Shown: piece by piece, positions 37,708-47,741 of the stretch
How the letters are laid out: each line of letters opens with the position of its first letter
Position numbering within the stretch: the stretch's first letter is position 1
DNA from: a bacterium
GTDB taxonomy: Bacteria > Vulcanimicrobiota > Vulcanimicrobiia > Vulcanimicrobiales > Vulcanimicrobiaceae
DNA length: 64,000 nucleotides
Reading direction: 5' to 3'
Assembly: GCA_021794205.1 (NCBI GenBank)
Contig: JAJYRH010000011.1
Span: 1 to 64,000, forward strand
Notes under the pieces: generated by a model
What the model was told of the DNA's origin: nothing
The model's input: the letters and a program-made list of their open reading frames with translations, nothing else
The model's database searches: none
Made by a program: the position numbers and the translations under genes

Positions 37708-38126
37708 ATGATGGAGAAGAGGGCGAGGGTGACCGTCCAGCCGACGACGCTCCACGCGAGAAAAGGGCGCGTTAGCGCCGCATCGTCGCCGGCGCGGGCG
37801 CGCCGTTCCATGTGGATCTCGATCGGAACGAGCACGGAGAGCCAGAGTACGCCGCTCGCGATGGCGATCGCGAGCGCATCGCGCGTCCAAAGGGTCCGCC
37901 ATGGGTCGATGCCGAGCCGCGCGGCCAACGCGAGTCCGCTCGTGATGACCGCGGATCCGAAAATCAGGGTAAAGATGATATCCGTGAAGAGAATCTCACG
38001 GACGGCGAAGCGGCGAAGCCGCCCGTCGCCCGAGCGAAAGGCGCGGGTCGCCCAGATGCCGGTAACGACGAAGTTCCCGAGCCAAAGGACGCCGGCTGCG
38101 ACGTGGAGGCTTTCGAGAATCGGCAT
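37680..38126 (-). CDS. DUF2269-like integral membrane protein
   Basis: 148 residues from ATG 38126. About four membrane spans are visible: ESLHVAAGVLWLGNFVVTGI, ILFTDIIFTLIFGSAVITSG, the ALAIAIASGVLWLSVLVP region, and a C-terminal VVGWTVTLALFSIIYFML. The LHVAAGVLWLG start is usual for DUF2269 proteins. Function unknown; a histidine in the first span could bind haem. It is the only leftward gene in the carotenoid cluster and overlaps the synthase gene tail to tail by 28 bases. Confidence 0.7.
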   Translation of the reverse strand: MPILESLHVAAGVLWLGNFVVTGIWATRAFRSGDGRLRRFAVREILFTDIIFTLIFGSAVITSGLALAARLGIDPWRTLWTRDALAIAIASGVLWLSVLVPIEIHMERRARAGDDAALTRPFLAWSVVGWTVTLALFSIIYFMLAKPV

Positions 38127-38150
38127 AGCGCGCGCTTCGGAGCGCTCGGC

Positions 38151-39575
38151 GTGAAGTCCGCCTTGGTCGTCGGCGCGGGTTTTGCGGGGCTGAGTGCCGC
38201 GCTCCATCTCGCGCGCGCTGGGATCTCGGTGCGCGTGGTGGAGGCGGCCGATCGTCCCGGCGGGCGGGCGCAGGCGTGGAGCAGCGGCGAGTATCGCTTC
38301 GATCTCGGTCCGACGCTCGTCGTGATGACCGACGTGCTGGAGGAAGCGTTGGGAGCGCGACATCTTGCCGAGCTGGAGTTGATGCGTCTCGAACCCGGCT
38401 ACGAAGTACGCTGGCGCGACGGCGAGCGCTTCGCCATGCACTCCGATATCGCATTGCTGCTCGCGGAGCTCGAGCGTTTCGAACCCGGAGTGAGCGCGCG
38501 CGCGCTCGATTATTTCGCACGCGTGCATGGAGCCTATCGCGACGCACGCCGAGAGGTGCTCGAACGCGACCATACGCTGCTCTCCTTTGCGGGGTTGCTC
38601 GCGCACCCCGGACGCATGCGCCCGTGGATCGCGGGCTCGTTACGTCGCTTCACCGAGCGTTCGTTCCATCGGTCGCGTTTGGTCGACGCATGGACGTTTC
38701 AATCGCTCTATCTCGGCACCTCGCCGCTGCGCGCTCCCGCAATGTACGCGCTGCTTCCCGTCGTCGAAGCGATCGAGGGCATCTGGTTCGCACCGGGCGG
38801 GATGGCGAGTATCGTCGACGCGTTCGCGAACGCCGCGGAATCGTTGGGCGTTGCGTTTTCCTACGAACGGCGCGTCGAGCGTCTCGAACGGAACGCCGCG
38901 GGAAGATGGTGGGCGTACGCGGGCGCGGAGCGTTTCGAGGCCGATGCCGTCGTCGTCGCCGCGGATCGCGAGCCCGCGCTCGCGCTGCTCGGTACGCCGC
39001 CTCCGCGCGCTCGGTCGCCACGTTACGGGCATAGCGCGCTCTGCTTGTATCTCGGCGTGCGGCGGCGCGTCGATCTCCCGTATCACACCGTCTTTCTCCC
39101 CGACGATCCATGGCGTGCCTATCGCGCGCTCGATGCCGGGATGCTTCCCGACGATCCGCTGCTCTACGTCTACAATCCGGTCGCGCGCGATGCGAGTGCG
39201 GCGCCGAGCGACGGCAGCGCTCTCCTCGTTCTCGCTCCGGTGCCGAACCTCACGGCGCTGCGCGAACGCGATCTCGCCGCATTTCGGCGGCGGATCTTCG
39301 AACGACTCGAAGGAGCGGTCGGAGAGCTCCGCGAGTTTATCGAAGTCGAGCGCGCGCGCGGTCCCGCGGAGTGGGCGAGCGAACTCGGGCTCATGCACGG
39401 CGCGGCGTTCGGCCCCGATCACACGCTCGACCAGATGGGGCCGTTCCGGCCGCCGATGCACGAGAAACGTTTTCCCGGATTGGTCTTTGCGGGGAGCGGA
39501 ACGCGACCGGGCTCCGGGGTGCCGATGGTCGTGATCTCGGGGCGACTCGCCGCCGAGCATCTCCTGCGCCGATGA
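38151..39575 (+). CDS. CrtI/CrtP-type carotenoid oxidoreductase (second of two)
   Basis: 474 residues from GTG 38151, with GGAG eight bases upstream. Same FAD family as 35358-36836: SALVVGAGFAGLSAAL, PGGRAQAWSSGEYRFDLGPTL and the C-terminal FAGSGTRPGSGVPM. In C30 pathways (Staphylococcus CrtN and CrtP) one paralogue desaturates and the other oxidises the end group. The coupling to acyl- and glycosyltransferase genes downstream favours an end-group oxidising role here, but a desaturase or isomerase role is not excluded. Confidence 0.8.
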   Translation: MKSALVVGAGFAGLSAALHLARAGISVRVVEAADRPGGRAQAWSSGEYRFDLGPTLVVMTDVLEEALGARHLAELELMRLEPGYEVRWRDGERFAMHSDIALLLAELERFEPGVSARALDYFARVHGAYRDARREVLERDHTLLSFAGLLAHPGRMRPWIAGSLRRFTERSFHRSRLVDAWTFQSLYLGTSPLRAPAMYALLPVVEAIEGIWFAPGGMASIVDAFANAAESLGVAFSYERRVERLERNAAGRWWAYAGAERFEADAVVVAADREPALALLGTPPPRARSPRYGHSALCLYLGVRRRVDLPYHTVFLPDDPWRAYRALDAGMLPDDPLLYVYNPVARDASAAPSDGSALLVLAPVPNLTALRERDLAAFRRRIFERLEGAVGELREFIEVERARGPAEWASELGLMHGAAFGPDHTLDQMGPFRPPMHEKRFPGLVFAGSGTRPGSGVPMVVISGRLAAEHLLRR

Positions 39576-40285
39576 GCTGGCAACGCGCGCATCGCGTCGC
39601 GGGATTCGAAGCGTTCTTCGGCGCCTATCTTCGTTGGCTGATGCGTCGCAGTTTCGCGCGCGTTCTCGTACGCCGCGATGGCGCGTTTCCGCAGGCAGGC
39701 TATGTGGCCGCCCCAAACCATCACTCCTGGTGGGATGGTTTTCTCGCATCGAGCATCCACCGCGCCTTCGCACCGGAGCGAGCGTTCAACCTGATGATGG
39801 ACGACGAACAATTGCGGCGCTTTCCATTTTTTCGTATGGGCGGTGCGTTCTCCGTCGATGCGCGCAGCGTGCGTGCCGCATACGATGCGATCGCCTACGG
39901 CGCGCGATGCGCGCGCGATGGTGCCGGCCTCTGGATCTTTCCCGACGGCGTGCTCCGGCCACCGCTCTGCGCGCCCCACTTTACCTCGGGATTCATCCAC
40001 GCCGCTCGCGCTGCGGAGGTGCCGGTGCTGCCGGTCGCGATGCGGTATTACGTTCTCGACGAGCAACGGCCGACGGCGATCGCGGCGATCGGCACGCCGA
40101 TCGATCCCCACCCGCGCGCGGCGCGGGCAAAGAGCGAGGAATCGGCCGCGGCGCTCCTCGCATCGATCGATAACGATCTTCGCGAGGGGCGCATCGACGA
40201 ACGCTATCGAGCGATTTTGCACGGGCGTTCGGGGATCGACGAGATCGTCGCCGCGAGCATCGCTCCGTTACGACGACGAACGTGA
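39572..40285 (+). CDS. PlsC-like acyltransferase in the carotenoid cluster
   Basis: 237 residues, ATGA overlap with the preceding oxidoreductase. The LPLAT motif HX4D is at H50-H-S-W-W-D55, and the second block reads LWIFPDGVLRPP (an EGTR-like loop with D for E). The N-terminal region is helical and amphipathic. It probably transfers a fatty acyl group, and by position the acceptor may be a glycosylated carotenoid, as in staphyloxanthin-like pigments. A phospholipid role is the alternative, but a second, more standard PlsC is encoded at 42116-42703. Confidence 0.75.
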   Translation: MSWQRAHRVAGFEAFFGAYLRWLMRRSFARVLVRRDGAFPQAGYVAAPNHHSWWDGFLASSIHRAFAPERAFNLMMDDEQLRRFPFFRMGGAFSVDARSVRAAYDAIAYGARCARDGAGLWIFPDGVLRPPLCAPHFTSGFIHAARAAEVPVLPVAMRYYVLDEQRPTAIAAIGTPIDPHPRAARAKSEESAAALLASIDNDLREGRIDERYRAILHGRSGIDEIVAASIAPLRRRT

Positions 40286-41436
40286 TCGCCGCCCTCTCCT
40301 GGCTGCTAGGAACGGCGCTCGCGATCGCCTTCTGCGGCGCGGCGATGACGTTGGCGAACGCGCCGCTCTTCCATCGGCTCGTGCCGCAGCCCGGCGCGCC
40401 GGGAACGGTCGATCTCTACATTCCGATGCGCGACGAGGCCGAACGCGCGCGCGAATGCGTCGCGAGCTTTCTCGCGCAGCCCGAGCTCCGGCGCGCCGTC
40501 CTGATCGACGACGGCTCGAGCGACGACACCGCAGCGATCCTCGCACGGATCGCGCGCGAGGACGAGCGCGTCGTCGTTCTCGCCGTTCCCAGCGACGCAC
40601 CGATGCAACGATCGCCGAAGGCACGTGCGATCGCCGCCGCAATAGCCGCGGTACCGATCGAAGCACCCTTCGCGCTCTTCGCCGATGCCGACGTGCGAGC
40701 GCTTCCCGGCGCGCTCGGGGCGACGCTCGCGGCGCGAGCATCGTTCGAGGTCGGAGCGGTGACGGGATTCCCGCGCACGCGCATTCACGATCTCTGGGCG
40801 GCGGGCTTCGCGTCGCTCCCGCGGCTGCTCTTGCTCGAAGCCTTTCCGATGCGTGCGGCGCGCGGGCTCGATCCGCGCTTCGCTGCGGGGAACGGGCAGT
40901 GGTTTCTCGTCGAACGCGATGCGTACGCGCGCAGCGGCGGGCATGCGGCGATCCCCGCGCTCGTTGAGGATATCGCGCTCGCGAGCGCGCTGAAACGCAG
41001 CGGTACGCGCGTCGCCTGCGCCGACGCACGCGACTGCGTCGTGCTGGAAGGATACGACGGCCTGCGGGCGAGCCTCGATGGATTGGGGCGTTCGTTGCTC
41101 GGGCAGGTCGGTATCATCGGCAGCCTCCTCTATGCCTCGCTCTATCTCGTGCGCTCCGCGCTTCCCATCGCCGCAGCGTTCGCCTGGTTCCACGCCCTTT
41201 CGACGGGTTCGGGCGGCTGGTTTGAAATGGCGTTTCTGCTGACGCTCGGTTCTGCGGCTCCGACGCTCGCGTTTCTCTCCGCTGCGAGGGCGGTCGAACG
41301 TCCGCGGGGAGTGCCGCAACCGCCGGCTGCGCCGTTCGCCATCGCCCTCGGGCTCTGGGCGGCGTATTCGGGGATCCGCGGCGGGCTACGCTGGCGGGGG
41401 CGGAGGATAGGCCGGGCGAACCCCCGGCCGCTGTGA
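40282..41436 (+). CDS. Membrane glycosyltransferase family 2 protein, CrtQ-like
   Basis: 384 residues, GTG 40282 overlapping the acyltransferase stop. An N-terminal membrane anchor (about 1-30) is followed by a GT-A domain: YIPMRDEAERA, LIDDGSSDDT at 75-83, and the metal motif D135-A-D137 in LFADADVRA. The acceptor-side GNGQWFLVERDAY segment and two or three C-terminal spans follow (SLLYASLYLVRSALPIAAAF). The layout matches CrtQ, which glycosylates carotenoid acids. Placement after an acyltransferase supports that role. Confidence 0.75.
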   Translation: MIAALSWLLGTALAIAFCGAAMTLANAPLFHRLVPQPGAPGTVDLYIPMRDEAERARECVASFLAQPELRRAVLIDDGSSDDTAAILARIAREDERVVVLAVPSDAPMQRSPKARAIAAAIAAVPIEAPFALFADADVRALPGALGATLAARASFEVGAVTGFPRTRIHDLWAAGFASLPRLLLLEAFPMRAARGLDPRFAAGNGQWFLVERDAYARSGGHAAIPALVEDIALASALKRSGTRVACADARDCVVLEGYDGLRASLDGLGRSLLGQVGIIGSLLYASLYLVRSALPIAAAFAWFHALSTGSGGWFEMAFLLTLGSAAPTLAFLSAARAVERPRGVPQPPAAPFAIALGLWAAYSGIRGGLRWRGRRIGRANPRPL

Positions 41437-42703: not shown

Positions 42704-43680
42704 GCGCGCCGGCGATCGATGCGGCGCTGACATCGTTCGTGCATCGGTTGCGCGAACGGGTGAGCGAGCACCGCTGCGGCGATCTGCTGCGCGAGGCGCT
42801 CGCCTATCACTTCGGCTTCGGCGCGTTCGGCCCGACGCGCGTCGGGAAGCGTCTCCGTCCGCAACTGCTCTTTCGCACGACGTTCGCGCTCGGGGCGGAG
42901 GCCGAAGCCGCGCTCGACGCCGCCGTCGCCGTCGAAATTCTTCACAATTATTCGCTCGTTCACGACGATATCGAAGATCGCGACGAGTTGCGGCACGGTC
43001 GCCCGACGCTTTGGTCGCGCTACGGTATCGCGCAAGCGATCAATGCCGGGGACGCGATGTGTGCGATCAGTTTCCTCGCGCTGACGCAGAGCGAGGCGAG
43101 GCTCGGCGCGCGAGGGACGCTCGCCGCCGTGCGGACGCTGCACGAGGCGCATCGAGCGATGTGCGACGGGCAAGCGCGCGATATTGCGTTCGAATCGCGC
43201 GATGCCGTGGCGTTTGACGAGTACCTCGAAATGATCGCCGGGAAGACCGCCGCGCTCTTTGGTGCGGCCTGTGAGTTGGGAGCGCTCTGCGCCGGCGCCG
43301 AAGTCGCGACGGCGGAACGCGCGTGCGAATTCGGCCGCGAATACGGTATGGCATTTCAAATTCGCGACGACATGCTGGGAGTCTGGGGAAACGAAGCCGA
43401 GACCGGGAAGCGCGTCGCGGGCGACCTCGCGCGGCGCAAGTGGAGTTTCCCGATCGTCTGGGCGCTCGCGCAGCCCGAGGGCGCCGCGCGGCGTACCGTT
43501 GCCGCAATGTATGCAAGCGGCCGCAGCCTCGGCGGTGACGAGGTTGAAGCGGTTCGCGAGGCACTCGACGAACTCGGTGCTCGCCCGGCATGCGAGCGTG
43601 CGATCGCGCAACGACTGAACGCCCTCCATCGTTTTGGCGATGACGATCTCTATCGGTTTGCCGCCGATTCTCTTCGCTAG
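42700..43680 (+). CDS. Short-chain trans-prenyl diphosphate synthase
   Basis: 326 residues from GTG 42700. First aspartate-rich motif D89-D90-I-E-D93; second Q220-I-R-D223-D224-M-L-G. The fifth residue before the first motif is Y84, a bulky residue that in this family shortens the product toward C15 or C20. GKRLRP at 50-55 is also conserved. Its position after the carotenoid genes suggests it supplies farnesyl or geranylgeranyl diphosphate to the synthase at 36829. The extended LHNYSLVHDDIED block is typical of geranylgeranyl/farnesyl synthases. Confidence 0.85.
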   Translation: MSAPAIDAALTSFVHRLRERVSEHRCGDLLREALAYHFGFGAFGPTRVGKRLRPQLLFRTTFALGAEAEAALDAAVAVEILHNYSLVHDDIEDRDELRHGRPTLWSRYGIAQAINAGDAMCAISFLALTQSEARLGARGTLAAVRTLHEAHRAMCDGQARDIAFESRDAVAFDEYLEMIAGKTAALFGAACELGALCAGAEVATAERACEFGREYGMAFQIRDDMLGVWGNEAETGKRVAGDLARRKWSFPIVWALAQPEGAARRTVAAMYASGRSLGGDEVEAVREALDELGARPACERAIAQRLNALHRFGDDDLYRFAADSLR

Positions 43681-43698: not shown

Positions 43699-46600
43699 GT
43701 GAGTACCCCTCTTTCATCGTTTCGCGATCGCGTCGAGGCAATCGCTCGGCCCCTGCTCTACGTCGTCCTCGCGTTCGGGCTCGTCCTTCGTCTCGCGTTT
43801 ATTCGAGAGAACGGTTTTTCAAACGATATCGCGGCGTTCGCTTCGTGGGCGATTACGTTAGCGACGCATCCGCTCTCGCAGTTCTACGGAAGCGCGGGCT
43901 TCGCCGATTATCCCCCCGGATATTTCTATATCTTGCGAGCGATCGGCGTTTTGTGGGCGCATCTTTTCGCCGCGCACGACGCACGGGATGCCGTCCTCTA
44001 TCTGCTCGTAAAGGTGCCGGGTATCCTCGCCGACCTCGGCATAGGCGCCTTGCTCTATGCCATCGTCGCTCGTCTCGGGGGGAAAGCGCTCGGGTTGCTC
44101 GCCGCAATCCTCTACGTCCTCAATCCGGCGACGATCTTTATCTCGGCGGTCTGGGGGCAGGTCGACGCCGTTGCGGGCTTCTTCGCGTTGCTCGCAGTTT
44201 ATGCGCTGCTGCGAAGCGGTGACGACGAGAGCGGAACGATGGGCTGGTCGCTGCTCGCCTGGACGGCGTTCTCGTATTCGCTGCTGATTAAACCGCAGGC
44301 CGCGGTGCTCGCCCCACTCTTGCTCGCCTACGCATTCGTCGGAACGAAATGGCGCGCGACGAGCCTTCGTTCTGCGGGAGCCGGGATTCTCGCCGCCTTC
44401 GGGCTCGCATGGCTCGTTACGTTGCCCTTCCACCCCGCCGTCGATCCCGTCGTCGTCCTCGTGTGGCTCTACCACCAATATCAATTTGCCGCGAGCGTCT
44501 ATCCGGACAATTCGGCGAATGCGATGAACCTGTGGACGATTACCGCGCCGTTCTGGCAACCGGACTCCGCAACCATCTTCGGCATTTCGCAAGGGCTCTG
44601 GGGCATCGGGCTCGTCGTCGCCGCGACGACGCTGGTAACGTGGCGGTATTTACAGGAGCGCAGCGAGGGCGCGCTGCTCGAAGCGGCGGCGATCGCGCTG
44701 CTGGCGTTTTATATGCTGGCGACGCGCATGCACGAGCGCTACAGTTTCGACGGCGTACTTTTCTGCATCGCGGCGATCGGCGTTGCGAGGCGTTACCTGT
44801 GGGGGACGATCGTTCTCTCGATCGTGCTCTTCGTCAACCTGCAGTACGCCTACGCATACCTTCGCGTCATGACCGACCATACGCCCGGCGTCAACCCAAC
44901 GAATATTTGGCCGGCCGTCACGCACCCGCTCTCGTTGATCGCGGTGTTGGTTTTCTTCGCGCTCAGTTACGCTTTTCTTTCGATGACGGGAGAGAGCGAG
45001 CCCGGCAGACGCGACGTCGATCCTACTTTCGAGGCGATCAAGGCATGGTTCGCTCAGGGCGCGCGGCGTTGGTTCGCTCCACGCAATGGATTGGCCGCGC
45101 TCGCATGGCCGCTCGATTACCTCATTTCTGCGACGTTGACGATCGCGAGCTTCGTCCTTTCATATGTCAATTACTGGAAGCCCGGCGGGAAAATTTTCGA
45201 CGAAATCTACTTCGCTCGAGCCGCCGAGGAGTACCTGCGGAACGTTCGCATCTACGAAAACACGCATCCGCCGCTTACGAAGTTGCTCATCACCGCCTCG
45301 ACGTGGCTTTTTGGCGGATTGCCGCGCGGTGATAACGCGCACGGCTGGCGTTTCGTCGACGTCCTGTTCGGCGCGTTAGTCATCCCCATCGTCTATGCAT
45401 TCGCCAGGCGCGTCACGCGCTCGACGCTCTTCGCAACGATCGCGACGACGCTCTTTCTCTTCGATGGGATGCATTACGTCCAGTCGCGCATCGCGACGCC
45501 CGAAGGGATCGTTATCGTCTTTTCGGTCGCCGCCGTCTATGCGTTCTATCGTTTCTGGATCGCCTCGCAGGTAAACGAACGGCAGCACGTCGATCTTCCG
45601 TGGTGGGCGTATCCGGTTACGGTCGCGCTCTCGCTCGGCGTCGGTTCGATTTTCGGGGCATTCTACAACGTAGTTTTCACCAAGCTCAATCCTTCCGCGA
45701 ACCCGACCGTCACCATCATCGCCGACGTGTTGATCGCCCTCTACGTTGCGGTCGGTCTCTACCTGTTGGGAAGACTGATCGTGCTTCCGAAAATCTTCGG
45801 CGACGGCCGAAGGGAGTTCAGCTTTCCCGATGGCTCGGTCGCGCTGGTCGGCCCGGATGGAATTCGCGTCGAGACCTTCGACGGCGGTCGCATCGAGCCC
45901 GACAGAAAGACGCCGATTCGCGGATCGCAGACGACGGTAGCGAACGGCACGCTCGTCGCGCGGATCGAACCGGGCGTCGAATTCGAGTATCGCCGCGACG
46001 GCAGCGTACGGTACGCAACGCCCGACGGAGCCGTCCTCTACACCGAGAATCGTATCGAGAGCGAGGCGGGGGAACGCGAGGACGGGCGCAGCGCCGGGTG
46101 GTGGTTGATCGCGTTTACCGTCGCTCTTGGTTGCCTCATCGCCAGCAAGTGGTATGGAGTGATGGGCTTCGGCGTCAGCTGGCTCGTGCTGATTCTCGTC
46201 GCCTCGCAACGATTCTGGAAAAATCGAATCGCCCTATGGGGAAACCCGCGTGGTTTCCGGCTCGACGTCGCGCTGCTCTCGATCGTCTTTATCAGTATGA
46301 CGGTCTATATGTTGGCGTGGGTGCCCGATATCGCCCGCAACGCGAAGTCGGTCAACGAGATCCATAATTTCAACGACGTCGTCTATCGACAGTACACGAT
46401 GTTCGAGTACCACGACCACCTGAAAGCGACGCACCCGTACTCTTCGAAGTTCTGGGAATGGCCGATCGATTTGGTGCCGGTCGCATACTATTACAAAGAT
46501 CTACGCAAGAATCCGGCCGACCCAAATGCTTGTTGCGTGCGCGAAATCACCTCGATGCCCAACCCGTTCATTCTCTGGTTTGGGCTGCTCGCCATCCCGA

Positions 46601-46959
46601 TCGTCGGAGTCCTTGCCTGGCGAGAGCGACATAAGGGCTACGCCTTGCTGGTGCTCGACTACCTCCTCCAGTGGTTGCCGTGGTCGCTCTCGCCGCGTAT
46701 CGCCTTCGAGTACCATTACTACGTCGATATTCCGCTCATCTGTATCTGTAACGCCATCGTATTGCAACGGCTCTGGCAGTGGGGCGACCGACAGCAGGAG
46801 ACGAAGAAGATGCTCGCTCGTGGGCTCGTCGGGGCCTACGTCTTGCTCGTCATCGCCGGATTCATCTACTTCTTCCCGATCCTTTCGGCGACGCCGATTA
46901 CCTACAATCAGTGGTACCAACGCATGTGGATTCCAAAATGGATCATCGGGCCGGGGTAG
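43699..46959 (+). CDS. Fused Gpi18-like mannosyltransferase and protein O-mannosyltransferase (PMT/GT39)
   Basis: 1086 residues from GTG 43699, about twice the size of a bacterial PMT. Residues 1 to about 430 form a GT-C glycosyltransferase with NGFSNDIAAFASW and FADYPPGYFYILRAIG, like Gpi18-type mannosyltransferases. From about residue 470 a second GT-C half begins: GGKIFDEIYFARAAEEYL near 497 carries the PMT catalytic DE pair, then THPPLTKLL and the C-terminal PMT_4TM segment FEYHYYVDIPL. A soluble, DG-rich insert occupies about residues 697-800. It should transfer mannose from a lipid carrier to exported proteins; the roles of the two halves are inference. Confidence 0.82.
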   Translation: MSTPLSSFRDRVEAIARPLLYVVLAFGLVLRLAFIRENGFSNDIAAFASWAITLATHPLSQFYGSAGFADYPPGYFYILRAIGVLWAHLFAAHDARDAVLYLLVKVPGILADLGIGALLYAIVARLGGKALGLLAAILYVLNPATIFISAVWGQVDAVAGFFALLAVYALLRSGDDESGTMGWSLLAWTAFSYSLLIKPQAAVLAPLLLAYAFVGTKWRATSLRSAGAGILAAFGLAWLVTLPFHPAVDPVVVLVWLYHQYQFAASVYPDNSANAMNLWTITAPFWQPDSATIFGISQGLWGIGLVVAATTLVTWRYLQERSEGALLEAAAIALLAFYMLATRMHERYSFDGVLFCIAAIGVARRYLWGTIVLSIVLFVNLQYAYAYLRVMTDHTPGVNPTNIWPAVTHPLSLIAVLVFFALSYAFLSMTGESEPGRRDVDPTFEAIKAWFAQGARRWFAPRNGLAALAWPLDYLISATLTIASFVLSYVNYWKPGGKIFDEIYFARAAEEYLRNVRIYENTHPPLTKLLITASTWLFGGLPRGDNAHGWRFVDVLFGALVIPIVYAFARRVTRSTLFATIATTLFLFDGMHYVQSRIATPEGIVIVFSVAAVYAFYRFWIASQVNERQHVDLPWWAYPVTVALSLGVGSIFGAFYNVVFTKLNPSANPTVTIIADVLIALYVAVGLYLLGRLIVLPKIFGDGRREFSFPDGSVALVGPDGIRVETFDGGRIEPDRKTPIRGSQTTVANGTLVARIEPGVEFEYRRDGSVRYATPDGAVLYTENRIESEAGEREDGRSAGWWLIAFTVALGCLIASKWYGVMGFGVSWLVLILVASQRFWKNRIALWGNPRGFRLDVALLSIVFISMTVYMLAWVPDIARNAKSVNEIHNFNDVVYRQYTMFEYHDHLKATHPYSSKFWEWPIDLVPVAYYYKDLRKNPADPNACCVREITSMPNPFILWFGLLAIPIVGVLAWRERHKGYALLVLDYLLQWLPWSLSPRIAFEYHYYVDIPLICICNAIVLQRLWQWGDRQQETKKMLARGLVGAYVLLVIAGFIYFFPILSATPITYNQWYQRMWIPKWIIGPG

Positions 46960-46988: not shown

Positions 46989-47741
46989 ATGTCCGGTCAC
47001 AGTAAATGGCACAATATCCGCCTGCGCAAAGGCAAGGTCGATGCGCAGCGCGGCGCCCTCTTCACGAAACTCAGCAAGGAAATCATCCTAGCGGTGCGGG
47101 GCGGCTCGCCCGATCCCGAGGCGAATTATCGCCTGAAAATGGCGGTCGAGAAAGCTCGCGCGAACAATATGCCGCGCGAGAACATCGCGCGTGCCATCGC
47201 GCGCGGCGGCGGCTCGGGGGGCGAGCGCGAGATCGAAGAGATTCGCTACGAAGGCTACGGACCGCACGGGCTCGCCGTCGTCGCCGACGCGGCGACCGAT
47301 AATCGCAACCGCACCGCCGGCGAACTGCGTTTCCTTTTTCAAAAACACAAGGGCGCGCTCGGCGAGACTGGGAGCGTCGGTTGGATGTTCGACCATCTCG
47401 GCATTCTCGAAGTCGATGCGGCCGGCCGGGATGAAGATGCGTTTCTCGAACGGGCGCTGGTCGACGGAGTCGTCGACATCGAATTCGGCGATCCGACGGC
47501 GACCGTCTATTGTGAAATCGAAGCGTTGCGCAGCGTTCGCGAAGCGCTAAGTGCCGCCGGGCTCACCGTGCGCGATGCCTACCTCGGCGTTCGAGCGAAG
47601 ACGCCGATTGCGTTGGAGGGCGAGCGTCTCGGTGAGGCGCTGGCATTTTACGATGCATTGGAAGAACATCCCGACATCGTGCGCGTCTTCATCAACCTCG
47701 ATGCCAGCGAGGCGGCGCTAGAAGCATTGGCGGTGGGATGA
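46989..47741 (+). CDS. yebC: YebC/PmpR-family protein
   Basis: 250 residues. YebC proteins act in translation of proline-rich stretches and were also described as DNA-binding regulators. The start MSGHSKWHNIRLRKGKVDAQ is nearly invariant in the family; later blocks NNMPRENIARAIARG, YEGYGPHGLAVVADAATDN and GSVGWMFDHLG fit as well. ATGA overlap with rpe. Confidence 0.96.
   Translation: MSGHSKWHNIRLRKGKVDAQRGALFTKLSKEIILAVRGGSPDPEANYRLKMAVEKARANNMPRENIARAIARGGGSGGEREIEEIRYEGYGPHGLAVVADAATDNRNRTAGELRFLFQKHKGALGETGSVGWMFDHLGILEVDAAGRDEDAFLERALVDGVVDIEFGDPTATVYCEIEALRSVREALSAAGLTVRDAYLGVRAKTPIALEGERLGEALAFYDALEEHPDIVRVFINLDASEAALEALAVG

Follow-up and report, generated by a model that had tools for sequence, protein, structure and literature searches.

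Here we present a gene that fuses two GT-C glycosyltransferases into one polypeptide, found in a 64,000-nucleotide stretch of DNA (hereafter the window) from a bacterium of the Vulcanimicrobiaceae, in the phylum Eremiobacterota (assembly GCA_021794205.1, contig JAJYRH010000011.1). The gene occupies 43699..46959 on the + strand, starts with GTG and encodes 1086 residues with no internal stop. A preliminary description of the window, made from its letters alone, had proposed such a single frame with two GT-C enzymes, and the frame is indeed intact. Its N-terminal half (N half) resembles ALG6 and family GT87, and its C-terminal half (C half) is a protein O-mannosyltransferase (PMT; family GT39). 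We favour, with modest confidence, a bifunctional O-glycosyltransferase that is initiator and extender at once, the fused counterpart of the actinobacterial pair PMT and PimE. We read it so because a PMT and a GT87/ALG6-like enzyme have repeatedly been fused or split in a constant order, because the catalytic set of each half is retained (D43, K198, Q154 and H345; D501, R1000 and F1003), and because the N-half family is nearest to GT87/ALG6: O-mannosylation of exported proteins in Actinobacteria is started by PMT and continued by PimE, a GT87 enzyme that extends the O-linked mannose (PMC12757957).

We infer the two activities, the acceptor, the reaction order and the sugar from these features. 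The protein would be an inner-membrane enzyme with both active sites on the periplasmic side. A GtrB-type GT2 enzyme would make the donor on the cytoplasmic side, and GtrA would turn it over. The C-terminal PMT half would then transfer a hexose from its polyprenyl-phosphate carrier to a Ser or Thr of an exported protein, and the N-terminal half would use a second polyprenyl-phosphate hexose to extend the sugar so attached. Fusion would hold initiator and extender together and fix their ratio. The preliminary description had a first mannose attached to secreted proteins and then extended; initiation followed by extension is retained as the likeliest role, whereas mannose is not, the synthase in this genome being GtrB-like.

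Architecture and catalytic residues of the fused protein

The N half spans residues 1–428 (43699..44982, +), as delimited by the model and by fold and profile matches, and is followed by a linker (residues 429–471; 44983..45111, +) that is partly modelled at low confidence (predicted local distance difference test (pLDDT) 41–52 over residues 431–450) and by the C half (residues 472–1086; 45112..46956, +). An earlier division into about 430 and about 600 residues is corrected accordingly, the N half ending near 428 and the PMT half starting near 472. Structure prediction, a check proposed with the preliminary description, gave the N half a GT-C fold (AlphaFold pLDDT 93.8, predicted template modelling score (pTM) 0.93) closest to ALG6 (6snh; template modelling (TM) score 0.69, E = 4.6e-7), with ALG3 at a TM score of 0.56. 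The full-length model (pLDDT 87.7, pTM 0.63) has its best matches in ALG6 for the N half and in Pmt4 for the C half (9i5k; TM score 0.69, normalised by target); at this pTM, the mutual placement of the modelled halves is uncertain.

The N half of the query had no Pfam match of its own, GT87 and ALG6_ALG8 included. Among 45 of its homologues, PMT_2 was matched by 32 and GT87 by 7; in a broader set of 58 N domains the matches were to GT87 (29), PMT_2 (24), ALG6/ALG8 (21) and PIG-U (10), and further matches of N-half homologues were to ALG3 and PIG-M. The profile of the 58 domains matched PIG-M (7.2e-15) and yeast ALG6 (2.3e-7) in the PDB. Predicted fold, sequence relation and a juxtamembrane Asp together place the N half in the ALG6/GT87 group of GT-C enzymes. 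It had at first been called Gpi18-type, an assignment that we reject: the Gpi18/PIG-V Pfam family is absent from the lists for the 45 and the 58 members, and the best fold is that of ALG6. Yeast ALG6 and PIG-M/Gpi14 (glycosylphosphatidylinositol (GPI) mannosyltransferase I) resemble the N half in fold and sequence, but are eukaryotic, are not fused to a PMT and have lipid-linked glycans as acceptors.

The predicted catalytic base of the N half is D43 (43825..43827, +), at the tip of the first juxtamembrane helix and invariant in 59 fused proteins as well as in the 58 diverse N domains. The alignment pairs it with position 87 of the 6snh chain (562 residues), which would be D69 of ALG6 if that chain carries an 18-residue tag. 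ALG6 D69 has been named as the catalytic base (PMC12653191). Four further sites follow: a conserved D70-YPPG motif (43906..43920, +), aligned with DYPP of ALG6; a WGQxD motif (residues 152–156; 44152..44166, +); K198 (44290..44292, +), the predicted donor-phosphate lysine; and RMHERY (residues 343–348; 44725..44742, +), in a predicted periplasmic loop, in which H345 aligns with the His of 'VHEK' in ALG6. Over the 58 N domains, down to 23% identity, D43, W50, Y71, W152, G153, Q154, K198, M344, H345, R347 and Y348 are invariant, and D70, D156 and E346 nearly so. In PimE, mutants of D58, K195 and Q163 abolish activity and a mutant of H322 reduces it (PMC12041525); by position, D43, K198, Q154 and H345 would be the respective counterparts of D58, K195, Q163 and H322. 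Each half had been expected to carry its own putative catalytic acids, and does: D43, D70, D112 and D156 in the N half, all invariant among the fused proteins, and D501 and E502 in the C half. Of the two N-half acids originally singled out, about D36 and D70, the second is conserved; residue 36 is an Arg, and the acid of the 'SND' motif is D43.

The C half was rightly taken for a protein O-mannosyltransferase. Pfam PMT is matched at residues 479–650 (E = 1.7e-23; 83.9 bits, cut-off 22.7) and PMT_4TMC at residues 892–1081 (E = 9e-23; 81.2 bits, cut-off 32.4), and relatives of known structure are Pmt4 of yeast and of Chaetomium and Pmt1/Pmt2 of yeast. Its score against NCBIfam NF058602, the actinobacterial-type Pmt equivalog, is 83 bits, with a cut-off of 800; judged by sequence, it is a relative of actinobacterial Pmt and not its equivalog. 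The catalytic DE pair, in the first external loop, is invariant and lies at D501-E502 (45199..45204, +), not near residue 499; D501 aligns with Pmt1 D77 (6p25), the MtPMT counterpart being D74. R1000 and F1003 form the Rx2[FY] motif of the fifth external loop (46696..46707, +), aligned with R649 and F652 of Pmt1 and equivalent to R441 and Y444 of MtPMT.

The second acid of the PMT half departs from this pattern. In the 6p25 alignment, Pmt1 D189 and MtPMT D176 correspond to E602 (45502..45504, +). Every Eremiobacterota protein compared has Glu here (58 fused, 3 solo), and all 51 clostridial proteins and all 24 from other classes have Asp. Neither Pfam nor CAZy makes the second Asp a defining feature of the PMT family, and we therefore file this half as a variant PMT. 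In MtPMT, D74, D176, R441 and Y444 are essential, and the D176E change leaves activity much reduced, nearly lost (PMC12331936).

The PMT half is interrupted after its fourth and before its fifth helix by two additional membrane helices (residues 637–700; 45607..45798, +; model helices 637–663 and 673–700), followed by an inserted TCP10/CPAP-like single-sheet beta-domain (residues 698–795; 45790..46083, +), modelled with high confidence as a series of short strands. The Tcp10_C match in this domain is below its curated cut-off, and the Foldseek match to CPAP 4bxp (E = 0.38, probability 0.87) is weak and descriptive of shape only. The insert region measures 86–112 residues in Eremiobacterota and 36 in termite-gut Christensenellaceae. 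By the expected PMT topology its loop would be cytoplasmic, and hence no counterpart of the luminal MIR domain. Yeast Pmt1, Pmt2 and Pmt4 share the C-half fold, but have that MIR domain in the lumen, where the protein described here has a predicted cytoplasmic TCP10-like insert, and have another PMT as partner.

Distribution and linkage of the two halves

A search for the same domain pair, also proposed at the outset, recovered the fusion throughout the class and in many Clostridia. Of the 99 genomes of the family, 96 have a match, including all 55 of good quality; a single frame nearly always covers the two halves, and most of the remaining cases are truncated at contig ends. Other families of the class have the fusion too, and the architecture recurs at about 40–94% identity across dozens of independent assemblies, far more than chance would give. 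PMTs of the other classes of the phylum are stand-alone, mostly of 350–600 residues, with the exception of a distant 1146-residue fusion in genome G109. Its GT-C part is highly divergent and lacks the DYPPGY motif, and the joining to a PMT is probably an independent fusion event. Solo PMTs of Eremiobacterota are nested inside the fused clade and are therefore most plausibly copies from which the N half was lost; three such paralogues (L094, L095 and L096) have about 455–537 residues and no beta-domain. In genome G054 (L027), a second, PMT-only frame follows the fused gene, an apparent tandem duplication. The gene of a record titled Rhodospirillales bacterium (L078) is likewise nested inside the Eremiobacterota clade, and that genome is probably misnamed or contaminated.

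In Clostridia, where the fusion is also widespread, the same domains occur as fused frames of about 985–1320 residues, as an N-type gene followed by a PMT gene, or as an N-type gene alone. Adjacent pairs are on the same strand, and their order is always N then PMT. The state, fused or not fused, changes at least seven times on the N tree and at least nine times on the C tree, both of which are quick trees with several weak branches. Distances between N domains and between C domains are correlated (r = 0.88 over 46 loci; r = 0.92 over 14 adjacent pairs), with none of 2000 permutations as high, a correlation that owes part to the shared ancestry of the genomes. Among plasmid records, only PMT halves of actinobacterial genera were matched, none covering 80% of the query. 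No second homologue, PMT or N-type, was found in the genome of origin (2.21 Mb, 90% complete). A literature search, of thin coverage for subscription papers, found no described fusion of this kind.

The fused gene sits among genes on the same strand. Upstream, in order, are genes for a flavin adenine dinucleotide (FAD) oxidoreductase, an acyltransferase, a GT2 enzyme, cytidylate kinase, an acyltransferase and a polyprenyl synthetase (42754..43680, +; assigned by Pfam), the last of which stops 18 bp before the fused-gene start. In other genera this synthetase gene is a stable neighbour (24 of 28 loci). Downstream are YebC/TACO1 (46989..47741, +), a ribulose-phosphate epimerase, an AIR-synthase-type protein (probably ThiL) and a phosphomethylpyrimidine kinase (probably ThiD). 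Cytidylate kinase, acyltransferase, polyprenyl synthetase, YebC, the epimerase and the ThiL-like gene adjoin the fused gene in 24–27 of the 28 other-genus loci, so the fused gene sits in the same inherited locus; YebC/TACO1, present in 26 of the 28, marks it as orthologous across genera. The FAD amine oxidoreductase, acyltransferase and GT2 genes further upstream (38112–41436) accompany the fused gene in few other genera. No Rfam elements were found in the window.

Putative donor pathway and the sugar

GtrA and GtrB are the flippase and the synthase of polyprenyl-phosphate sugars. A GtrA or GtrB-type gene is close by in 23 of 42 clostridial pairs (those with enough flank, six short loci having been swapped for longer versions and the count merged by hand), compared with none of seven lone N-type genes; the chance of the latter result is about 0.008 if relatedness is ignored. 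The clostridial genomes concerned have 1–5 GtrA copies each, from which we estimate the chance of such adjacency at well under 1%. In a second family of the same class (two genomes; L249 and L257), a GT2 gene lies 44–51 bp downstream of the fused gene, between it and yebC; its product is soluble, of about 240 residues, and related to ArnC and dolichol-phosphate-mannose synthase (DPMS).

The genome of origin has one GtrA and one GtrB-like GT2, whose best solved relative is sll0501 (E = 1.9e-98); its other GT2 genes were judged by eye not to be of the polyprenyl-phosphate-hexose synthase type. The best NCBIfam score of the GtrB-like gene (L176, C11:1439-1936) is that of PgfS of Streptococcus mutans, below the curated cut-off. 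The product of Synechocystis GtrB is undecaprenyl-phosphate-glucose (PMC4728340). The clearest polyprenyl-phosphate-hexose synthase of this genome being GtrB-like, the sugar could therefore be glucose; on these sequence relations mannose is not established, and glucose or another hexose may be used. The sugar transferred by the GT39 enzyme of Caldicellulosiruptor bescii is disputed, being mannose by family and a galactose disaccharide by analysis (PMC12757957).

Proposed function and alternatives

The closest parallel is the actinobacterial system, in which PMT (GT39, MtPMT) and PimE (GT87) are periplasmic initiator and extender of O-linked mannose and use a polyprenyl-phosphate donor. The PMT half shares the DE and Rx2[FY] motifs of the former, and the N half has a catalytic set matching the latter. 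The two differ in that there are two proteins there and one polypeptide here, in which the second acid is Glu in place of Asp, a beta-domain is inserted, and the sugar is one that we infer. A second parallel is the GT39 enzyme Cbes_1864 of C. bescii, a stand-alone protein of 556 residues, similar in length to the unfused PMTs of Clostridia, the parallel being drawn from its published description. It is encoded in a compact four-gene cluster, and its deletion shows that the glycosylation of secreted enzymes depends on it (PMC6151902). In the Pgf system of S. mutans (PgfS, PgfM1 and PgfM2), a GtrB-like synthase and two large membrane proteins modify surface proteins (PMC5856776); its genes are separate, PgfM1 is assigned to the PMT-2 subfamily, and the parallel with PgfM1/M2 is again drawn from the published description. 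Three-component GtrA/GtrB/Gtr systems encode a polyprenyl-phosphate-hexose synthase, a flippase and a GT-C enzyme together, an arrangement approached in Clostridia (GtrA or GtrB beside 23 of 42 pairs) but not in the genome of origin; in them the GT-C enzyme is single and the acceptor is O-antigen or another glycan.

Further support for a joint initiator and extender comes from the co-divergence of the two halves, from GtrA or GtrB beside clostridial pairs and not beside lone N-type genes, from the GtrA and GtrB-like genes of the genome of origin, from the GT2 gene behind the fused gene in the second family, whose product resembles polyprenyl-phosphate-sugar synthases, and from the C. bescii enzyme. 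Three observations weigh against it. N-type genes occur in genomes G416, G112 and G433, which have no PMT match, and this suggests that the N domain can have another acceptor. In the genome of origin, GtrA and GtrB are both located elsewhere, unlinked to the fused gene. Finally, the PMT half may be altered, since Glu at the position of E602 (D176E) leaves MtPMT nearly inactive. A more detailed version of the proposal, namely a fused initiator-extender throughout the class that makes O-linked disaccharides from a GtrB-made hexose other than mannose, with a Glu-variant PMT half and a cytoplasmic TCP10-like domain, is correspondingly tentative and, taken whole, rather doubtful.

Two active transferases might instead share only donor and location and make separate products, the PMT half acting on proteins and the N half on a lipid or a cell-wall glycan. 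We consider this, the main rival, unlikely. In its favour, N-type genes stand alone in several Clostridia, no PMT was matched in 3 of the 12 genomes that carry one, and the GT-C enzymes of three-component Gtr systems act on polysaccharides (PMC11127046). However, repeated fusion or adjacency with one partner, always in the order N then PMT, favours a shared product over a shared donor, and the seven lone N-type genes examined have no GtrA/GtrB neighbours.

The preliminary description had also raised an internal heterodimer, and the N half could indeed be mainly a structural partner, either in a pseudo-heterodimer or as a subunit that binds donor but has no transfer activity. PDB entries show dimers for eukaryotic Pmt1-Pmt2 and Pmt4, and PIG-U, of the same fold group, is a scaffold in the GPI transamidase (PMC12653191). 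For a scaffold, however, the invariance of the base, the phosphate lysine, Q154 and the HERY loop over 58 domains is unexpected; the N half is ALG6-like and not a PMT, so that no PMT–PMT pair is formed; and stand-alone N-type genes occur. We regard a structural role as improbable. The conserved catalytic residues and ALG6-like fold of the N half also make it very unlikely to be a non-enzymatic extension of the kind that single-domain PMTs might carry at their N terminus.

Slightly more improbable still is a PMT half impaired or re-tuned by E602 and the beta-domain, the N half being the main activity. The uniform Glu of the fused and solo Eremiobacterota proteins and the much lower activity of MtPMT D176E (PMC12331936) speak for it, but D501, E502, R597, the HPP motif and R1000 are invariant or nearly so, and several genomes retain solo PMT paralogues that also have this Glu. 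An assembly artefact or frameshift joining neighbouring genes is rejected as having a negligible chance, the same single frame and a conserved gene neighbourhood recurring in those dozens of diverged, independent assemblies.

For the initiator-plus-extender enzyme that we favour, repeated fusion and adjacency predict a dedicated extending enzyme for bacterial PMTs outside Actinobacteria, and the fused form would open initiation and extension to study in a single protein. The change from Asp to Glu amounts to a natural test of a residue that the mycobacterial enzyme cannot do without, and the annotation 'mannosyltransferase' may name the wrong sugar. Protein O-glycosylation, hardly studied in either group, may be a core trait of many Clostridia and of an entire class with few cultured members.

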